DNA from: an uncultured Oscillospiraceae bacterium
Lineage (GTDB): Bacteria > Bacillota_A > Clostridia > Oscillospirales > Oscillospiraceae
Direction of reading: 5' to 3'
Assembly: GCA_944387755.1 (NCBI GenBank)
Contig: CALXGC010000170.1
Location: forward strand, 1 to 22,587
DNA: 22,587 bases
In this document: positions 1-22,587 of the stretch, piece after piece
How positions within the stretch are numbered: the first letter of the stretch is position 1
How the letters are laid out: the number at the start of each line of letters is the position of its first letter
Made by a program: the position numbers and the translations under genes
The notes under the pieces: generated by a model
Seen by the model: only the letters and a program-made list of their open reading frames with translations
Told to the model about the DNA's origin: nothing
Databases searched by the model: none

Positions 1-385
1 CCTGCTCCGCGGCCCAGTCGGCCACGAAGCGCTCCACCCGGCCGATGGCCACGGGCTCGCCCTTCACGCCCCGGACGCACTTGCCCTCGCACTGGTTCTC
101 CTGGGGGCACACCCGGCCGGAGATGGCAGGGAGGGCGTTGGCGTTGGAGAGAATCTCATAGGCGGCGGCGATGTCCCCCTCCGCCACCTTGGACAGAAAC
201 TCCGGGATGGGAATGCCTACCGGGCAGCCGCTGACGCAGGCGGGGTTCTTGCAGTGGATGCACCGCTGGGCCTCGTTCATAGCCTGCTCCAGGGTATAGC
301 CCTGGGCCACCTCCAGGAAGTTGTGGTTGCGGACCTGGGGGTCCTGTTCGGGCATGGGGGTCTTGTTCATCTGCATATTAGCCAT
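1..385 (-). CDS. gltA: NfnB/GltA-like NADPH-dependent flavoprotein, N-terminal part
   Basis: Only the first 128 residues lie in the window; the rest runs off the left edge. The N-terminus carries the two cysteine clusters typical of the Fe-S domain shared by glutamate synthase small subunit (GltD) and NfnB/SudA: a C-x2-C-x3-C-x3-CP group (CIHCKNPACVSGCP) and a later C-x5-C-x3-C group (CPQENQCEGKC). These ligate [4Fe-4S] clusters in the family. The start ATG sits inside the stop region of the upstream gene (ATGGCTAA, 8-base overlap), so the two are translationally coupled. With NfnA next door, the likely role is the large subunit of NADH-dependent reduced ferredoxin:NADP+ oxidoreductase, an electron-bifurcating cytoplasmic enzyme. 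Databases often name this protein GltA. A stand-alone glutamate synthase or SudA role cannot be excluded. Confidence 0.85.
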   Translation of the reverse strand, partial: MANMQMNKTPMPEQDPQVRNHNFLEVAQGYTLEQAMNEAQRCIHCKNPACVSGCPVGIPIPEFLSKVAEGDIAAAYEILSNANALPAISGRVCPQENQCEGKCVRGVKGEPVAIGRVERFVADWAAEQ

Positions 386-14985: not shown

Positions 14986-15885
14986 TCACCCACCGGACGC
15001 CAGTCCCAGCAGCACGGCAATGACAACCACCACCCCCAATATGGCCAGGACCAGCTGCACAATAAACAAGACAATCATCACAACCGCCACCACCGCGGCC
15101 AGTACCAGCGCAAAGGCCGCCGGGCCCGCGGCCGCCGCAATCAGAGTCAGGTTATTGACGGCGCAGCGGGTCTGGCTCCACATCGCCTTGGCGGCCAAAA
15201 CCGACGCCGCTGTGGCAATCACCGCCAGAATTATCATCCCCCCGTCAATCCACCCCTGGGGCACGCCCTCGCTGAGCAGGCGCGGGGAGGCGGCGTCATA
15301 GACCGCCCAGCTCCCGGCCCCGGTCCAGACCAGGCAGGTCAGATAGTAGAGGATGTTCTTGGCCCTCTCCAGCAGCTCTGTATGCAGGGTCTCTATGTCC
15401 GAGAGCTGCATGTCAATCTGCCCGGCGGCCGCATCCACAGGCGGCCCCGCCTGGAGGGGGAGCTCCCAGCCGCTGGTCCGGGCGCTCTGAAAGGCCCGGA
15501 GATTGGACTCCAGGGCGCTCCGGCTCAGATTTAACTGGGTCTTCAATTGCAGCAGCTTCTCCCGCACGTCAAAAATCATCCCGTAGTACCGCAGCTGCAC
15601 CACGTCGTCCGCCACCATCAGGACCACCAGCAGGACGGACGCCGCAGCCGCGGCCGCCGTCAGCAGAACCGGAATCCGCCCTGAGACGATATAACAGGCC
15701 AGCCCATACGCCGCCGCCCAGAACAGCGTGCCGGCGATGGCGCCGGTGAGGCCGGCCCTGGTCCTCCCTCCCGCGCGGCTGTCCACAGCGGCTGAGAGGG
15801 CGTCCAGACTCTTCCCCGTGCGGTCAAAGCGCTCCTGGGCCTGGCGCATCATCTTCTCCAGCGCGGCGTTATTTTCCACCGTCAT
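14986..15885 (-). CDS. Multi-TM protein of unknown function with central coiled region
   Basis: I do not recognise this 299-residue protein. It starts with a polar helical stretch (about 1-45, rich in E, R, Q), then two close membrane helices (AGLTGAIAGTLFWAAAYGLACYIV and IPVLLTAAAAAASVLLVVLMVA). A central soluble region of about 100 residues is predicted helical (VREKLLQLKTQLNLSRSALESNLRAFQ...DMQLSDIETLHTELLERA). Two more helices follow, then a very long hydrophobic C-terminal stretch (about 50 residues) that could cross the membrane twice. The ATG overlaps the kinase stop (ATGA), so expression is tied to the kinase. It could be a membrane partner or target of the kinase, or a scaffold; no catalytic motif is visible. 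Longer in-frame starts before 15885 lie inside the kinase gene and lack a ribosome site. Confidence 0.75.
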   Translation of the reverse strand: MTVENNAALEKMMRQAQERFDRTGKSLDALSAAVDSRAGGRTRAGLTGAIAGTLFWAAAYGLACYIVSGRIPVLLTAAAAAASVLLVVLMVADDVVQLRYYGMIFDVREKLLQLKTQLNLSRSALESNLRAFQSARTSGWELPLQAGPPVDAAAGQIDMQLSDIETLHTELLERAKNILYYLTCLVWTGAGSWAVYDAASPRLLSEGVPQGWIDGGMIILAVIATAASVLAAKAMWSQTRCAVNNLTLIAAAAGPAAFALVLAAVVAVVMIVLFIVQLVLAILGVVVVIAVLLGLASGG

Positions 15886-18242
15886 TTGGGCGCACCTACC
15901 TCTCTGTCTGTATGTACAGGCTCCGCATTGGTTTTTGCCGGCGCAAGCCAGGCCTGAAAGCCCAGAGGCGCGGACCTGCCGAACAGCGCAAAGGCAAAAC
16001 AGCCTGCCAAATTGACGCACAGCACATTTCTGTTCTCATAGATTCCCGCGGAGACGCAGAAGGGGTTGTCCGCCAAATTCAGCTGGAGCTTCTTCACCAG
16101 CTCCAGCAGTGGGGCATAGGCCCGGTAAATGCCGTCCAGGTCCTGGGCGGCGGCGGGGTGAAAGCCGGCGATCTCCTCCAAAAGCTGCTTCCCCGCCGCG
16201 TTGAGGGGCTGGTAGACCGGGTTCTCCTTCCCCCGCTCCACCAGGCGCTTGGTATAGACGGCTATGCCCACAGGCCCGTACTCCGTAAAGAAGTGCCGCA
16301 GGGGGGCGGCGTCCGCCCCGGCCTTTTGGGCGGCGGCGTCCAGCATGGACAGCAGGAGGACGGCCCGATTGAACTCGTCGCACGCCTCCGCCTGCGCCCA
16401 GTACGCCTCCGCCATCTCCTGAAGGCCGAAGCTGTATAGGAAGCCGTACAGGTCCGCCCCGGCCTTCCGGCTCATCAGCTTTTTACAGCCGCCGTCATAG
16501 AAGGCGTCCGGCGTCTGGAAGAGGGCCTGCAGCAGCTCCTCCAGGCTGGAAACCCGCCGTCCGCCGACGTCCAGCGCCCGCTGTTCACAAAAGCTGTTTT
16601 CAAACCAGTAACCTGCCAGCTCCAGCTCCCTCTGGGAGAGGTCCTCTATGCTTCTCACCAGCGCCTTTGTCTCTTCCTCCGCCTGAATTCCCTGGGTGTA
16701 GTCCAGCCAGTGGGAGACGCACTGCCTCTGGAGGAGCTCGCTGCAGACGGATGGATTCCGGCTGCGGCGCATCTTCTCCGCCAGCTCCCGGAGTCCGGCA
16801 AAGACGTACCCCTTCCAGACCAGGGGACCCGGCGTGAAGAGGTGCTTTAAAAATACGGCCAGGCCCTTGTCCCGGTCCCTCATGCGCCAGGTTTCCTCCG
16901 CCTTCTGGGCCGCTCTGGCCAGGTCCGGGCGGAAGGATTTAAAAAAGTTCTCAAAATACTTCTCATAGAGGAGTTCCACCCCCTCCTTCCAGTGGGCGGC
17001 GTCCTTGGTAATCCCCTCAAAGAGGCTCTGCTCATCCCGGTACTCCTCCCCCAGCATTCGGAAGGGCCTGGGCCACTCGTCCCCCTCCGCGCCGCCGGTG
17101 TAGCTGTGGTCCTCCAGCCAGCGCTTCACATCCGCATACCCAAAACGGTACCGGGAGTCATAGCGGCACAGGCCGCAGAGGAGGTTCTCCAGCTCTCTCC
17201 GGTGGGGGTCCGTCCTGGTGAGGGGCAGGCGGCCCTGCCGGACCGCCAGCGTCACCATGGCCGGCGTCATACACTGGTACACAAAACGCCCTTCAAACAG
17301 AGAGCCCAGGGTGACGCCCAGGGAGTAGTAGTCGCTGGCCTCGTCGAAAAAGAAGGCCGACTCCCCGGCGGACACGGCCAGCACCGTCTCCGGCGCCCGG
17401 TAGCCGTCTGTGCCGGCAGTATGGACCGTCGCGCCGGCCCTGGCCAGCTTGGCCACGCCGAAGTCTCCGATGACCACCCGTCCGTCCAACAGGTAGAGGT
17501 TCTCCGGCTTGAGGTCCCGGTGCAGAATCCCGGCGCTGTGCATACTGTGCAGGGCCTCGTTGAGGTACTCCGTCAGCGCCACAATTTCCTCAAAGGAGTA
17601 GGGCGGACGGCCCGACAGGTCCCCCTCCCGGCAGTAGGGCGTAATTTCAAAGTAATACCGGCCGCCCCCCACCTCGGCCAGTCCAATCTCGCGGACCGCC
17701 AGGGTGTACTTCTGCCCCTCCTCCGTGCTCATGTACTCCAGCACCTTGGTCCGCGCCTCAATGGAGGAGCCCCGGCCGTCCACCGGCTCGAAATAGACCT
17801 TCGCCGCCGCCTCCCGGCCGTCGGGCGCGGTGCACAGAAGCACGGCGGACTCTCCCCCCTCTCTGGACAGAGTCCGCTGGATGGCGTACCGCGTCCCGGC
17901 GGAGGACACCAGCTCTCCCAGCTCCTCCACAGCCTGCCGGAACTCGTCTATGTGGGCATAGGCCCGGGCCGTTGCGCCGGACATCACCTGCACAGAGTCC
18001 AGCATTCCATCCACGGTGCGCCGCCACCCCTCGTCCACTTGCGTGGCCTGACGGCCCTGGGCCTCCCGCGCCCGCCATCCCTCGTCCACCTGGGTGGCCT
18101 GACGGCCCTGGGCCTCCCGCGTCCGCCACCCCTCGTCCACCTGGGTGGCCTGACGGCCCTGGGCCTCCCGCGCCCGCCATCCCTCGTCTACCTGAGTGGC
18201 CTGACGGGCCGGCAGCGCCTCATTCTCTCTGATATGCTCCAT
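15882..18242 (-). CDS. Ser/Thr protein kinase with N-terminal TQVD repeats
   Basis: A 786-residue Hanks-type kinase. Residues 13-74 hold four copies of a 17-residue repeat (core RQATQVDEGWR). The catalytic domain runs about 118-395: a glycine-loop region, K148 (AAAKVYF), HRDLKPEN (241-248), DFG (260-262), a Thr-rich activation loop (ATVHTAGTDGYR) and APE (283-285). All key catalytic residues are present. The C-terminal 390 residues are helical and unrecognised, without a convincing membrane helix, and no PASTA domains are present, so this is not the PrkC/StkP cell-wall kinase. Start: ATG 18242 after GGGGGAG; the frame extends upstream but overlaps the phosphatase end. The phosphatase lies 35 bases before it, an FHA protein is farther upstream, and a membrane protein overlaps its stop. 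Confidence 0.93.
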   Translation of the reverse strand: MEHIRENEALPARQATQVDEGWRAREAQGRQATQVDEGWRTREAQGRQATQVDEGWRAREAQGRQATQVDEGWRRTVDGMLDSVQVMSGATARAYAHIDEFRQAVEELGELVSSAGTRYAIQRTLSREGGESAVLLCTAPDGREAAAKVYFEPVDGRGSSIEARTKVLEYMSTEEGQKYTLAVREIGLAEVGGGRYYFEITPYCREGDLSGRPPYSFEEIVALTEYLNEALHSMHSAGILHRDLKPENLYLLDGRVVIGDFGVAKLARAGATVHTAGTDGYRAPETVLAVSAGESAFFFDEASDYYSLGVTLGSLFEGRFVYQCMTPAMVTLAVRQGRLPLTRTDPHRRELENLLCGLCRYDSRYRFGYADVKRWLEDHSYTGGAEGDEWPRPFRMLGEEYRDEQSLFEGITKDAAHWKEGVELLYEKYFENFFKSFRPDLARAAQKAEETWRMRDRDKGLAVFLKHLFTPGPLVWKGYVFAGLRELAEKMRRSRNPSVCSELLQRQCVSHWLDYTQGIQAEEETKALVRSIEDLSQRELELAGYWFENSFCEQRALDVGGRRVSSLEELLQALFQTPDAFYDGGCKKLMSRKAGADLYGFLYSFGLQEMAEAYWAQAEACDEFNRAVLLLSMLDAAAQKAGADAAPLRHFFTEYGPVGIAVYTKRLVERGKENPVYQPLNAAGKQLLEEIAGFHPAAAQDLDGIYRAYAPLLELVKKLQLNLADNPFCVSAGIYENRNVLCVNLAGCFAFALFGRSAPLGFQAWLAPAKTNAEPVHTDREVGAPK
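18021..18206 (-). repeat. Tandem 51-bp repeat array inside the kinase gene (3.6 copies)
   Basis: Four near-identical units of 51 bp encode RQATQVDEGWR plus the linker A/T-REAQG; the last is partial. Threonines fall at residues 16, 33, 50 and 67. The units differ by only a few bases, including the A/T linker change (GCG/ACG-type), which indicates recent duplication and a likely variable copy number. Confidence 0.95.
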
Positions 18243-18277: not shown

Positions 18278-19069
18278 TCAGTCCAGGACAAACGGGACCT
18301 GCTCCACCGGCGCGCGCTCCCCCTGACCGGCGCACAGGCAGACTGTGATGTTGTCCTCGCTGCCGGCCTCCAGAGCCGCCGCCGCAAGCCGCTCCGCCAG
18401 CGCCTCCAGATCTCCCCCGCCGGACAGCAGTCTCTTAATCTGCCGGTCTCCCATGCACTCCCAGAAGCCGTCGGAGCAGAGGAGAAAAATTTCTCCCGGT
18501 CCGATGGGCACGTTGGAGATATAGAGCTCCGGCGGCGGGCTGTCCGTCCCAATGCACCGGCTGATGATGTTTCTCTGGGGACTGACCAGGGCCTCCTCCT
18601 CTGTCATCCGGCCCTGCTCCACCATCCGCTGCACCACGGAGTGGTCCACCGTCATTCGCGCCAGGCTGAAGCCGTCATACCGGTACACCCGGCTGTCCCC
18701 CGCATGGAAAATCAGGGTCTTTTCCGGGCAGAACACGCACCCGGCGATGGTGGTGCACATCCGCCCATACTGGGGGAACTCCCGTTTTTTCTCCCAAACC
18801 GCCTCTCCGGCCCGCTCCAGCGCCTGGGCCAGCCCCTCCGGGCTGGACAGCGCCTCCGGCGGCGTCTGTTCCAGCACAGACAGTGCCGTCTCCGCCGCCA
18901 GGCCGCCCCCGGCGTACCCGCCGCAGCCGTCGCACACCGCCGCCGCACAGGGCAGGGAGGCCTCTCCGGCCCAGGAGCCCGCCTCCAAAATCCGCCCCGG
19001 CAGCAGGGCGCGGTCGTCGCCGCTCTCCCGGCGGCCCTTTTCCACCCTACAGGCCAGCGCAATTTTCAT
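18278..19069 (-). CDS. PP2C-family Ser/Thr protein phosphatase
   Basis: A 263-residue PPM/PP2C phosphatase. Metal-binding and core motifs are visible: GDDR (17-20), CDGCGG (46-51, usually DG-GGH), GDSRVYR (124-130), DHS (142-144), CSDGFWE (198-204) and EDNITV (238-243). The first motif is ESGDD instead of the usual NQD, and the histidine of DGGGH is missing (CDGCGGYAGG), but the metal aspartates D19, D47, D200 and D239 are kept, so activity is likely. The family removes phosphate from Ser/Thr using two Mn or Mg ions. It starts inside the AAA+ gene (23-base overlap, GAGGTG upstream) and comes right before the kinase, the standard pairing in which it reverses kinase action. Cytoplasmic; no membrane helix. 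Confidence 0.93.
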   Translation of the reverse strand: MKIALACRVEKGRRESGDDRALLPGRILEAGSWAGEASLPCAAAVCDGCGGYAGGGLAAETALSVLEQTPPEALSSPEGLAQALERAGEAVWEKKREFPQYGRMCTTIAGCVFCPEKTLIFHAGDSRVYRYDGFSLARMTVDHSVVQRMVEQGRMTEEEALVSPQRNIISRCIGTDSPPPELYISNVPIGPGEIFLLCSDGFWECMGDRQIKRLLSGGGDLEALAERLAAAALEAGSEDNITVCLCAGQGERAPVEQVPFVLD

Positions 19070-20999
19070 CGCTCATCACCTCAAATGCCAGGCCGCCGTC
19101 CGGGCCCAGGCGGCACCGGAGGGCTCTGGGATTCTCCGCCAGCGTACAGATAAAGCCCGCCAGAGGGTTCAAAAATTCCCGCTCCAGCATATTGCCCACC
19201 CCACGGCCGCCGTTGCCGCGCTCCAGCACGGCCCGGCGGCGCAGCTCGTCCCGGACCTCCTCCGTGACAATCGCAATGCCCTTCTCCTCCCGGACCGTCT
19301 GGCAGATTTTGCCCAGCTTATAGTCGCAGATTGCCTCGGCGTCCGGCTTGTTGATGAACTGGAAGACCACAATGTTGTCGTCTCCCAGCCGGTTGAGCAG
19401 CTCCGGCCGGCCGATATTGTTGAAGTAGTCCTTGACGCCCCCGGTCAGCTGCTCCGTCACCTTTCGCCGGAACTCCGGGGTATCCTCCCGTTCGGGGTCC
19501 TCGATGGTGATGGCGGGGACCCGCCGGGCGGTTCCGAAGGGCTCTCCCGCAGCCTCCTTCGTCAGGCCGATGTTGCTGGTGAAAATAATGATGGTCTCCC
19601 CAAAGTAGACGGTGTTGCCCTGGTTGTCCGTCATGCGGCCGTCCTCCAGGATCTGAAGAAACTTGTCCAGGATGGTGGGGGAGGCCTTCTCAATCTCATC
19701 AAAGAGCAGCACGCTGAAGGGCCGGGACTTCACGGCGTTGGTGAGCTGCCCGCCGCCTTCATAGCCCACATACCCCGGCGGCGCGCCGAAGAGCTTCTGG
19801 TCGCTCTGCTCCAGGCGGTATTCGCTCATATCAAAGCGGATACAGGCGTTTTCATCGCCGAAGATGGCCTCCGCCAGCGCCTTGGCGGTCTCGGTCTTGC
19901 CCACGCCGGTGGGACCGGCAAAAAACAAAATGCCCTTGGGCTTATGGGACGCCCCGGAGTGCTGAAGTCCGGACAGGCCCTTCACAGCCCGCGTCACCAC
20001 CGCCTTCACCTTGCGCAGCGCCTCGTCCTGTCCCTTGACCCGCTCCTCCAGCTTGCTCTCAATGTGGACGAGAATGTCGTTCTCCAGGTTTTCCCACGGG
20101 TTGTCCAGCACGCCGTACTTGTACAGCCGGAAGGCCAGGCTGATTTCATCCGGCTTGATGCCCTTCCGGCGGGCCAGGCGGAGGATCTGCTTGATTTCCT
20201 GGAGCTGGAGGCCCTCCGTCTCCGCCACAAACTGCTTCCCCGGCTCATAGTTCTCCCGGCTGAGCAGCTGGAAGGGCGCCAGGTCGCCGTATAAATTCTC
20301 CAGGTACAGCCGCCGGGTGTTCCGGTCCGGCTTGTTGATGGATATGGTCCGGATGTTGGGGTTGTTCAGATAGACCCAGGCGGGGATGTCGTTGTACTTA
20401 TCCACCACCAGAATCAGTGAGTTGCAGAAGAGCTGGGAGGCCTGCCCGGCGGCGGTGGCCGCCATCAGGTTCAGAAACATGGTGTTGGCCTCCGCCTGAC
20501 GGAGATTGCAGGCGTCCAGCCGGGAGGCGAAATTCAGGACAAACGCCACATTTTCGTTCTCCCCTCCGCGGACGGCGTCGGTGATGGCGGCCCGGATGAT
20601 CTCGCTGACCCAGATATACTGCTCCGTCTCCGCCGCGCTCCGGCCTCTCTTCCTGCCGCTGGGCATCAGGCAGAGGGTGCAGCCGTGATTTTTCGTGGTC
20701 TCCGTGCAGGAGTAGCCCTCAAAAAGCGGCATGAGCGCCTCCCGCTGGGCCTCCATATCGGCCTGACAGCAGTAGAAGCCGTCCACGGGGTCGAAAAAAT
20801 ACAGCGCCGTCCTCTCCTCGTCCACAAGGCTTCGGATGGCCTGGTCCAGATTGTCGGTGTCCAGAAAGGAAACCCCGTCCTCCCCATAGCTGAAGCAGGG
20901 GTACTCGTCGTAGACGTTGCCCTCCAGGATGATGCCGCTGTTGATGCCCAGAAAGGCGCGCAGCTCCCGCTGCCACTTTGGAATGCTGTTCTCCCTCAA
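19047..20999 (-). CDS. ClpB-like AAA+ protein with degenerate first AAA half, TTG start
   Basis: A 650-residue protein. The start chosen is TTG 20999: it follows GGAGGGAG by five bases, overlaps the upstream stop as TTGA, and matches the coupling style of the operon. Upstream in-frame ATGs lie deep in the previous gene. Residues 320-600 form a ClpB/ClpX-type AAA+ domain: Walker A GPTGVGKT (362-369), pore loop GAPPGYVG (405-412), Walker B LLFDEIEKA (431-439), TSN sensor 1 (474-476) and RPELLNR (531-537). Residues 1-310 look like a AAA fold without a P-loop (LEGNVYDEYPC in its place; a Walker-B-like LILVVDK at 195-201). No Clp N-domain and no ClpP-docking loop is evident. It probably unfolds or remodels a protein target rather than feeding ClpP. 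Confidence 0.87.
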   Translation of the reverse strand: MRENSIPKWQRELRAFLGINSGIILEGNVYDEYPCFSYGEDGVSFLDTDNLDQAIRSLVDEERTALYFFDPVDGFYCCQADMEAQREALMPLFEGYSCTETTKNHGCTLCLMPSGRKRGRSAAETEQYIWVSEIIRAAITDAVRGGENENVAFVLNFASRLDACNLRQAEANTMFLNLMAATAAGQASQLFCNSLILVVDKYNDIPAWVYLNNPNIRTISINKPDRNTRRLYLENLYGDLAPFQLLSRENYEPGKQFVAETEGLQLQEIKQILRLARRKGIKPDEISLAFRLYKYGVLDNPWENLENDILVHIESKLEERVKGQDEALRKVKAVVTRAVKGLSGLQHSGASHKPKGILFFAGPTGVGKTETAKALAEAIFGDENACIRFDMSEYRLEQSDQKLFGAPPGYVGYEGGGQLTNAVKSRPFSVLLFDEIEKASPTILDKFLQILEDGRMTDNQGNTVYFGETIIIFTSNIGLTKEAAGEPFGTARRVPAITIEDPEREDTPEFRRKVTEQLTGGVKDYFNNIGRPELLNRLGDDNIVVFQFINKPDAEAICDYKLGKICQTVREEKGIAIVTEEVRDELRRRAVLERGNGGRGVGNMLEREFLNPLAGFICTLAENPRALRCRLGPDGGLAFEVMSDENCAGL

Positions 21000-21565
21000 T
21001 TTCGCTCCCTCCGATCCTGTATGCCGGTGATGATGACCGCCCCGTTGTGGGAAAAGCTCTCCAGAAATCTGCCCCGCTCCATATAGGCCCGGTAGCGGCC
21101 GGCCAGCTCCGGGGTCAAAAAATGTATGCCCTGATTTTCGGACCCCCGGAGGGCGCATCCGCAGTTGAGAGCCTCAACATAGGGGCCGTCTATCAGCACG
21201 TCTGTCAGTCCCAGGCAGTCCAGACCCGCCCGGCCCGCCGCGCCCTCCTGAAGCTCCTCCAGTCGGAAGCCGGTGTAGACCAAAATGTCGCCAAAATCCC
21301 CCCGGACGGCGGTCAGAAGCTCCCGCAGGCCCTCCGCCTGTTCAAAGGGCTCTCCCCCGGAAATGGTCAGGCCGTCACAGCCGCGCCGGGCGGCGGAGCG
21401 GAGAAGCTCCGCCAGCAGGCTCTCGTTTGCCTCGTGGGACGTGTGGGGCTGGAGCTCCGGGGAGATACAGCCCCGGCAGCCCCTTGTGCAGCCCTGCACC
21501 CACAGCGCCGCCCGCTCCCCCGGCCCCAGGGAGTGGACCGGGGCGATCATCCGCGCAATTCTCAT
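20996..21565 (-). CDS. Radical SAM activase-like protein (NrdG family)
   Basis: A 189-residue small radical SAM protein. The cluster motif is C26-x3-C30-x2-C33 (GCTRGCRGC), with SGGEPF (69-74) as the SAM-binding loop, and the fold length matches NrdG/PflA-type activases. Such enzymes place a glycyl radical on a partner enzyme. No NrdD, PflB or other glycyl-radical enzyme is in the window, and the gene sits inside a kinase/phosphatase operon with four-base overlaps on both sides (ATGA with the FHA gene, TTGA with the AAA+ gene). It may instead modify another protein of the system, or have lost its original role. Database name would be 4Fe-4S cluster-binding or anaerobic ribonucleotide reductase-activating protein; I avoid nrdG because the partner is absent. 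Confidence 0.85.
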   Translation of the reverse strand: MRIARMIAPVHSLGPGERAALWVQGCTRGCRGCISPELQPHTSHEANESLLAELLRSAARRGCDGLTISGGEPFEQAEGLRELLTAVRGDFGDILVYTGFRLEELQEGAAGRAGLDCLGLTDVLIDGPYVEALNCGCALRGSENQGIHFLTPELAGRYRAYMERGRFLESFSHNGAVIITGIQDRRERN

Positions 21566-22296
21566 TGAATCTGGACCCGAAAGGCCATGGACGCGGCGTG
21601 GTGCCCCAGAGTGAGCTCGTCCCCGTCCCGAAGGACCTGCTCCCCACCGGGGTCCAGAAACCGGCGGTTCACCGCCGTGCCGTTGCGGGAGTGGTTGTCA
21701 ATGACCACCCAGTCCCCGTCCCGGAAGGTCAGGTAGCAGTGCTCATTGCCCACATAGGGGTCCTGCTGCAAAAAGCTCCCGTACTCCGCCGCGCGCCCCA
21801 GCAGGAGGGGCAGTCCCTCCTGGTCCGCGCGCAGCGTAAAGGAGAGCGCTCCATACCGGAGGGCCGTCAGCGTCAGCGTCTGCCCGGTCAGACCGCTCCG
21901 GGCCGTCTGGACGCCCTCCAGAAGCGCCGTCCAGAGGGATTCGCCGTTCTCCTCCGGTTCCTCCGGTTCCTCCGGCGCTGCGGCGTCCTCCTGTTTCTCC
22001 TCCGCGTCCAGATACAGCGCCGGCTTCACAGCGGCAATCCGGGCCTTGTGGCAGTTCCAGCAGGCCTTCACCCCTCTGGAGGGGTCTAAAGTAAAATTTT
22101 CCGCGCCGCAGGCCGAGCACTTCTGTACATACACCGGCAGGTCCGGATTGATCTCCCCCCGCTGCTGGGGCGGGATGGTCTCCAGGTCCGTCAGGCGGCC
22201 CGGCGTCTCCCGCAGGTCCGCTCCGCACCGGCAGACCTGCGCCGAGAGGTCGTGGTAGAGGCCGCAGGCGCACAGCTTGCATGGAATTTTCCTCAT
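21562..22296 (-). CDS. Zinc-ribbon and FHA domain protein
   Basis: A 244-residue cytoplasmic adaptor. The N-terminus has two cysteine sets, C6/C9/C11/C22/C24 and C60/C63/C79/C82, the latter a standard zinc ribbon. An acidic, Pro/Glu-rich linker (EEPEEPEE) follows. The FHA domain is at about 150-240: LLGR (165-168), GNEHC (183-187; the usual Ser of the SxxH motif is replaced but H186 is kept) and SRNGT (203-207) with the conserved Asn-Gly-Thr. FHA domains bind phosphothreonine, often with Asp three residues later. The kinase of the same operon carries four T-Q-V-D motifs, a natural partner. Start: ATG with GGGGAG upstream, overlapping the previous stop (ATGA). Confidence 0.88.
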   Translation of the reverse strand: MRKIPCKLCACGLYHDLSAQVCRCGADLRETPGRLTDLETIPPQQRGEINPDLPVYVQKCSACGAENFTLDPSRGVKACWNCHKARIAAVKPALYLDAEEKQEDAAAPEEPEEPEENGESLWTALLEGVQTARSGLTGQTLTLTALRYGALSFTLRADQEGLPLLLGRAAEYGSFLQQDPYVGNEHCYLTFRDGDWVVIDNHSRNGTAVNRRFLDPGGEQVLRDGDELTLGHHAASMAFRVQIQ

Positions 22297-22587
22297 GCTC
22301 TCTCTCCCCTTTGTTGTCTGGCCAGCTGCTTCTCTTCCCGGCCCGTCTCACGGACGCCCGCGTCCGCCCCCTGGCCGGTCCACGCGTTTCCATCCAGGGT
22401 CCGCCAGTCCTCCACCGTGAGCACCTGCTCCGCCGCGGCGATCTCCTCCGGGTCGTACAGGATGAACCAGTTCTCCCGCAGGCGCTGGTAGAGGGTCCGC
22501 ATTTTGGCGCAGTGGGCCTTCTGGACCGCCGCCGCCCGTCCGGCGTCTCCATCCGAAGAGATGGCCTGCATGACGGCGGTGCCGTCC
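22293..22587 (-). CDS. Unrecognised protein, C-terminal 97 residues
   Basis: The frame is open to the right edge, so this is the end of a longer gene; the Met at 22571 has no ribosome site and is probably internal. The visible part is helical and charged (VMQAISSDGDAGRAAAVQK, then TLYQRLRENWFILYDPEEIAAAEQVL) and ends in a Gln/Arg/Glu-rich tail. No membrane helix and no motif I recognise. Its stop overlaps the FHA gene start by four bases, so it belongs to the same operon. Confidence 0.6.
   Translation of the reverse strand, partial: DGTAVMQAISSDGDAGRAAAVQKAHCAKMRTLYQRLRENWFILYDPEEIAAAEQVLTVEDWRTLDGNAWTGQGADAGVRETGREEKQLARQQRGERA

Follow-up and report, generated by a model that had tools for sequence, protein, structure and literature searches.

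The window, the whole stretch of 22,587 nucleotides analyzed here, carries on its minus strand a run of genes that encodes, in the order of transcription, a zinc-ribbon/FHA protein, a radical SAM protein, an AAA+ ATPase, a PP2C-type phosphatase, a protein kinase and a hydrophobic protein. The features are as follows:

14986..15885, minus strand: hydrophobic protein adjoining the kinase; start placed by overlap with the kinase stop codon
15882..18242, minus strand: Ser/Thr protein kinase of 786 residues with an N-terminal repeat array (PF00069, E 1e-22; catalytic residues)
18021..18206, minus strand: the array, four R-Q-A-T-Q-V-D-E-G-W-R cores in 17-residue units (repeat finder and translation); proposed FHA docking sites, putatively autophosphorylated
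18278..19069, minus strand: PP2C-type phosphatase, candidate eraser (PF00481, E 1.8e-07; Stp1-type match under the model cut-off)
19047..20999, minus strand: ClpB-like AAA+ ATPase of 650 residues, probable TTG start (PF07724, E 4.4e-47; partial ClpB match under cut-off)
20996..21565, minus strand: radical SAM protein resembling NrdG-type activases (PF13353, E 4.9e-29; NrdG match under cut-off)
21562..22296, minus strand: zinc-ribbon/FHA protein, candidate reader (PF00498, E 2.4e-12; putative zinc ribbons, from conserved Cys pairs)

Gene ends overlap throughout this run, with the sole exception of a 35-base gap upstream of the kinase. The original prediction had placed an FHA protein in the operon of the kinase, and one is indeed encoded in the same run, four genes upstream. 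The kinase reads from an ATG at 18242 to a stop codon at 15884-15882, and it has the catalytic Lys148, the HRD Asp243, Asn248 and the DFG Asp260, all invariant in 37 kinases; by sequence criteria it is a Hanks-type Ser/Thr kinase with the residues of an active enzyme. The domain scan of the AAA+ protein used the frame 19047-21011, its TTG start being a probable assignment, and the hydrophobic protein gave no family match in scans of the longer frame 14986-16020. Upstream of the FHA gene, a partial gene (22293-22586) shows only a weak DUF6083 match, under cut-off. We do not claim membership in a PADLOC defense system, because the kinase matches cover nothing beyond the kinase domain, mad6 being the best (E 1e-24), and the AAA+ matches are partial, PDC-M37B being the best (E 2.1e-30).

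Tandem Repeats Finder places the N-terminal array at 18021-18207, with a period of 51, 3.7 copies and 93% match. The repeat unit is 51 bp, or 17 residues, and the four near-identical units yield the same core, RQATQVDEGWR, at residues 13-23, 30-40, 47-57 and 64-74 (minus strand 18174-18206, 18123-18155, 18072-18104 and 18021-18053, respectively), so that Thr16, Thr33, Thr50 and Thr67 each have Asp at +3. In the fourth unit, RQATQVDEGWRRTVDG, the 11-residue core is intact and the remainder has diverged. A minimum of five codon changes separates the four cores, and every one of them is synonymous (p 0.0007 with equal rates and 0.0014 with transitions weighted 4:1, both values assuming random and independent changes). 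The description from which we started, four 17-residue repeats with Thr followed three residues later by Asp, encoded by near-identical DNA units, is therefore borne out.

We searched for relatives of the window kinase and used the best 120 of 1127. Dropping two (P0098 and P0116) left 118 kinases for scanning, and 115 of these, the window kinase included, have the downstream anchor. Across the 115, the array takes the form of an 11-residue core, R-x-A-T-[QE]-[VAI]-D-x-G-W-R, joined by variable linkers. The 528 sites anchored on GW[RK] are not independent, as copies duplicate inside proteins and the proteins are kin; among them, the position five residues ahead of the Gly is occupied by Thr at 526, by Asp at one and by His at one (in P0114, whose start is truncated), and nowhere by Ser. 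The +3 residue is Asp at 504 sites, Glu at 22, Asn at one and Pro at one, and the -3 residue is Arg at 451, Lys at 24 and His at 20, with the rest fewer. After thinning at 75% identity (37 kinases, 34 anchored), Thr is found at 140 of 141 sites, with Asp at +3 in 129, Glu in 11 and Asn in one. The docking idea was open to refutation by repeats that persist while TQVD is lost; the opposite was seen, with Thr and the acidic +3 residue among the best-kept positions. The conserved unit is broader than the TQVD originally singled out, though, and amounts to R-x-A-T-x-x-D-x-G-W-R, with GW[RK] equal to Thr and Asp in constancy in aligned columns. The exclusion of Ser is evidence of modest weight, because Ser does occur in other conserved Thr columns, at 13 positions beside 440 with Thr; compared with 140 to 0 in the array, this gives p 0.046. 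A single Ser copy, KASQVEQGLR, was spotted by eye in P0101; it has also lost the Trp.

One relative (P0073) is from Candidatus Spyradocola sp., of the Christensenellaceae. One further relative (P0241) is a 445-residue version of the kinase with six repeats and a different tail soon after the kinase domain, either a natural truncation or an assembly artifact. A query with the array among proteins of about 165-525 residues returned six, all of them pieces of the array kinase; proteins with a single copy of the motif would escape such a search.

Intact copies number 2 to 6 in 116 of the 118 kinases, and the number can differ between kinases more than 99% identical elsewhere, which fits the recent expansion originally suggested. 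In particular, P0026 and P0050 are 99.85% identical across the 661 residues outside the tail and have six and five copies, respectively, their sizes of 800 and 783 residues differing by one unit. This pair, near-identical elsewhere and one unit apart, supports a recent change of copy number within the family, while some of the 183 unequal pairs represent decay (P0022/P0031) and not deletion, decayed copies having been scored as absent. Such near-identity of the 51-bp units, together with a copy number that varies between kinases 99.8% identical elsewhere, is also what neutral slippage of a functionless repeat would produce. We reject that explanation as very improbable: the window cores differ synonymously only, and the core persists in kinases less than 75% identical to one another. 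Copy-to-copy spacing ranges from 14 to 52, most commonly 18 (47/115) and then 17 (24/115), and between adjacent equal-spaced repeats core identity is 86% (510/594) against 66% (301/459) for the linkers.

The location of the sites on the kinase itself raises another explanation, namely that the array works in cis, its copies being pseudosubstrates or autophosphorylation sites that sit in the kinase's own active site and thereby set its activity, with no partner to read them. Arg at -3, present at 451 of 528 sites, is a common kinase determinant and suits this explanation. A pseudosubstrate, however, would have no need of Thr, the copies differ widely in number and spacing, and an FHA family with an Arg of the type associated with Asp at +3 is encoded alongside the kinase. 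We consider action in cis unlikely, and turn to the FHA protein as the candidate reader.

Residue counts for this protein were made on the best 120 of 137 homologues. Arg168 and Asn205 of the phosphothreonine pocket are present in 120/120, and with the fold and these contacting residues the window protein qualifies, by sequence, as an FHA domain protein. At position 183, Gly occurs in 89/120 and Ser in 31/120, the window protein having Gly183; the usual phosphate-contacting Ser of the S-x-x-H stretch is absent from the window protein and from most of the family. A profile of 36 FHA members compared with the PDB ranks Rad53 FHA1 (1g6g) second, with E 4.1e-08. The alignment is ungapped in this stretch, and position 181 of the family, which is Arg in 117/120, falls on the Arg of R-L-S-N-K-H, which we take to be Arg83 of Rad53 FHA1. 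Arg83 has been credited with the selection of Asp at +3 (PMC4037201); the rule is not absolute, because the same source has Rad53 FHA1 also binding pTxxI and pTxxT. As background we took the 30 best-scoring FHA loci of 99 clostridial-class genomes, a sample that is biased to strong matches and includes some close kin; in the 27 that were readable, the position equivalent to Arg83 is never Arg and is Phe or Tyr in 19, and the phosphate-contact position is Ser in 26 and Gly in one. Two distant operons, whose kinases lack the array, encode FHA proteins with Tyr and His at this place. Given 117/120 against 0/27 and 0/2, Arg181 seems to be characteristic of the family with the repeats, and it would fit a pThr-x-x-Asp ligand.

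The three exceptions to Arg181 are P0207 (Gln), P0147 (Tyr) and the window protein itself (P0121), with Tyr181 encoded by TAT at 21754-21756. This is a real departure, to a residue that other clostridial FHA domains often have. The proposal that the FHA protein reads pThr with Asp at +3 is plausible for the family, where Arg168 and Arg181 speak for it and the frequent Gly183 against it, and is weakened for the window's own protein, which has Tyr181 and Gly183. Elsewhere in that protein, a 9-base tandem repeat (21950-21975, 2.9 copies) lies within an acidic EEPEEPEEN stretch; many homologues have at this place long Asp runs followed by W-x-x-[IL]-L-G, in some twice.

The lack of an Asp+3-type Arg in the window protein also favors a different explanation, in which the 11-residue motif docks another partner (the AAA+ protein, the radical SAM protein or one encoded outside the window), mainly through Trp and Arg and without phosphorylation, while the FHA protein reads something else. 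GW[RK] anchors the 528 sites of the 115 kinases and varies no more than Thr and Asp do; the conserved unit exceeds what an FHA +3 rule requires, and FHA recognition does not predict the conservation of GWR. Docking of another partner leaves the invariant Thr, the absence of Ser at intact sites and the family-specific Arg181 unaccounted for, however, and P0105 retains T-x-x-D in its listed repeats despite replacement of the Trp by Pro, so the two halves of the motif can part. We regard it as a rather improbable explanation, if the strongest of these alternatives.

Reading of the array by the FHA protein gains from the linkage of the two families. By exact agreement of longest-contig size, 12 pairs of kinase and FHA clusters were placed on one contig, compared with a mean of 0.38 and a maximum of 4 in a jittered control; the pool comprised 82 kinase and 51 FHA clusters on contigs of at least 10 kb, and a partner among the listed FHA clusters was traceable for only 12/82 kinase clusters. 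Arg181 is present in each of the 12 FHA partners, and T-x-x-D copies in each of the 12 kinases. Linkage here means a shared contig, and the window is an additional linked case, with Tyr181.

More distant loci were sought in genomes. A genome-contig search with the window kinase turned up no relatives among 26 pattern matches, and with the kinase alignment the best 80 of 552 matched the kinase-domain part at 26-42% identity; in viral contigs nothing was found. Whole-genome searches (E cut-offs 1e-20 to 1e-50 or 1e-60) covered 1711 genomes counted with overlaps, a true reach below that number because several order searches listed identical first genomes; they recovered no member of the repeat family and three distant kinases, all without the array. 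The GW[RK] repeat is found in 0/3 of these, and a lone T-x-x-D lies close to the start of the G1078 kinase. Two of the genomes, G557 and G1057, have the FHA, radical SAM, AAA+ and kinase genes in the order of the window. G557 also has a PP2C gene, located between the AAA+ and kinase genes, a place where G1057 leaves no space for one. Around the G1078 kinase no such neighbors were seen within 18 kb, in plus-strand frames only. As the distant operons share the genes and their kinases lack the GW[RK] repeat, the gene set extends more widely than the array. The gene that precedes the FHA gene in each of the two distant operons (L082 2196-3554 and L085 3045-4898) encodes a Gln/Arg-rich, helical-looking protein with MSGPK close to the N-terminus, and the window ends before the equivalent place. 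One distant kinase (L086 7837-10635) has a C-terminal SH3_3 domain, and TVYD and TVYE near its N-terminus, possibly a looser T-x-x-acidic form.

Several known systems offer partial parallels. In Rad53, FHA domain and kinase are joined in a single protein, whereas here they are two; Rad53 FHA1 shares with the FHA family the Arg at the position that selects Asp at +3, the window protein itself having Tyr. PppA is the phosphatase of the type VI secretion threonine phosphorylation pathway, in which kinase and FHA protein form one module, as here. In that PpkA/Fha pathway, Fha binds pThr14 of TssL (PMC3953482), so the phosphothreonine sits on TssL and not, as proposed here, on the kinase tail. No Tss structural genes were found among eight window proteins with Pfam or seven with NCBIfam, the window end cutting the gene run, and the AAA+ protein matches TssH partially and well under cut-off. 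In Actinobacteria, PknG recruits GarA (PMC8546545), and PknG-GarA/OdhI resembles our proposal in the recruitment of an FHA protein to a kinase; as described there, the PknG sites form no tandem array and the PknG N-terminus is poorly conserved. PknG also has a C-terminal TPR domain and, in most members, a rubredoxin domain, neither of which was matched in the window kinase (Pfam, E 0.01; divergent TPRs could escape). Vertebrate MDC1 has four TQXF repeats that are phosphorylated on Thr and read by the FHA domains of RNF8 and Pellino (PMC11884936). Its +3 residue is Phe, versus Asp here (504 Asp, 22 Glu, one Asn and one Pro of 528), its marks are written in trans by ATM, MDC1 not being a kinase, and we claim no homology. 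In DgcB of Bdellovibrio, an FHA domain reads phosphothreonine on a flexible N-terminal tail (PMC6733907), with tail and FHA in one protein, a single site and Val at +3. By analogy, the window system would resemble PknG-GarA or MDC1-RNF8 in mode and be a member of neither. The motif strings were not found in the open-licence PMC literature, the sole match there to the gene set appears to describe other systems, and among the papers listed for FHA arrays and for PknG/GarA none came to notice that places a tandem array for FHA docking on a bacterial kinase.

We therefore favor, as the probable function, a phosphothreonine array written by the kinase and read by the FHA protein of the same gene run, and the docking-array idea as a whole is partly supported. 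The kinase would phosphorylate the Thr residues of its own tail motifs, with Arg at -3 as a likely kinase determinant, and the FHA domain of the zinc-ribbon/FHA protein would read the pThr-x-x-Asp part. The array would thereby collect FHA proteins at the kinase, where they would serve either as its substrates or as a link to the radical SAM and AAA+ partners, and the marks would be taken off by the PP2C phosphatase; through GWR, the motif may make a second contact, whether to the FHA protein or to the kinase. Autophosphorylation, FHA binding, valency and erasure are the parts of this mechanism that we infer. Such arrays could also drive clustering, as reported in a review for the phosphorylated FHA modules of Rv1747 (PMC9312465). 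A bolder version, which we put forward tentatively and hold to be doubtful, is a self-written multivalent scaffold in which pTxxD is read by the FHA protein and GWR by a second partner, and in which a fast-changing copy number sets how many FHA proteins sit on the kinase; this would make it the bacterial equivalent of the MDC1 array.

In the papers that we compared, the bacterial FHA ligands are single or scattered sites; here, the array is tandem, variable in copy number, located on the kinase itself and family-wide, and its partner FHA family has a matching specificity residue. The natural series that results, mostly of 2 to 6 copies and with an Arg or a Tyr reader, would suit the study of how valency and specificity of a bacterial phosphosignal are tuned.
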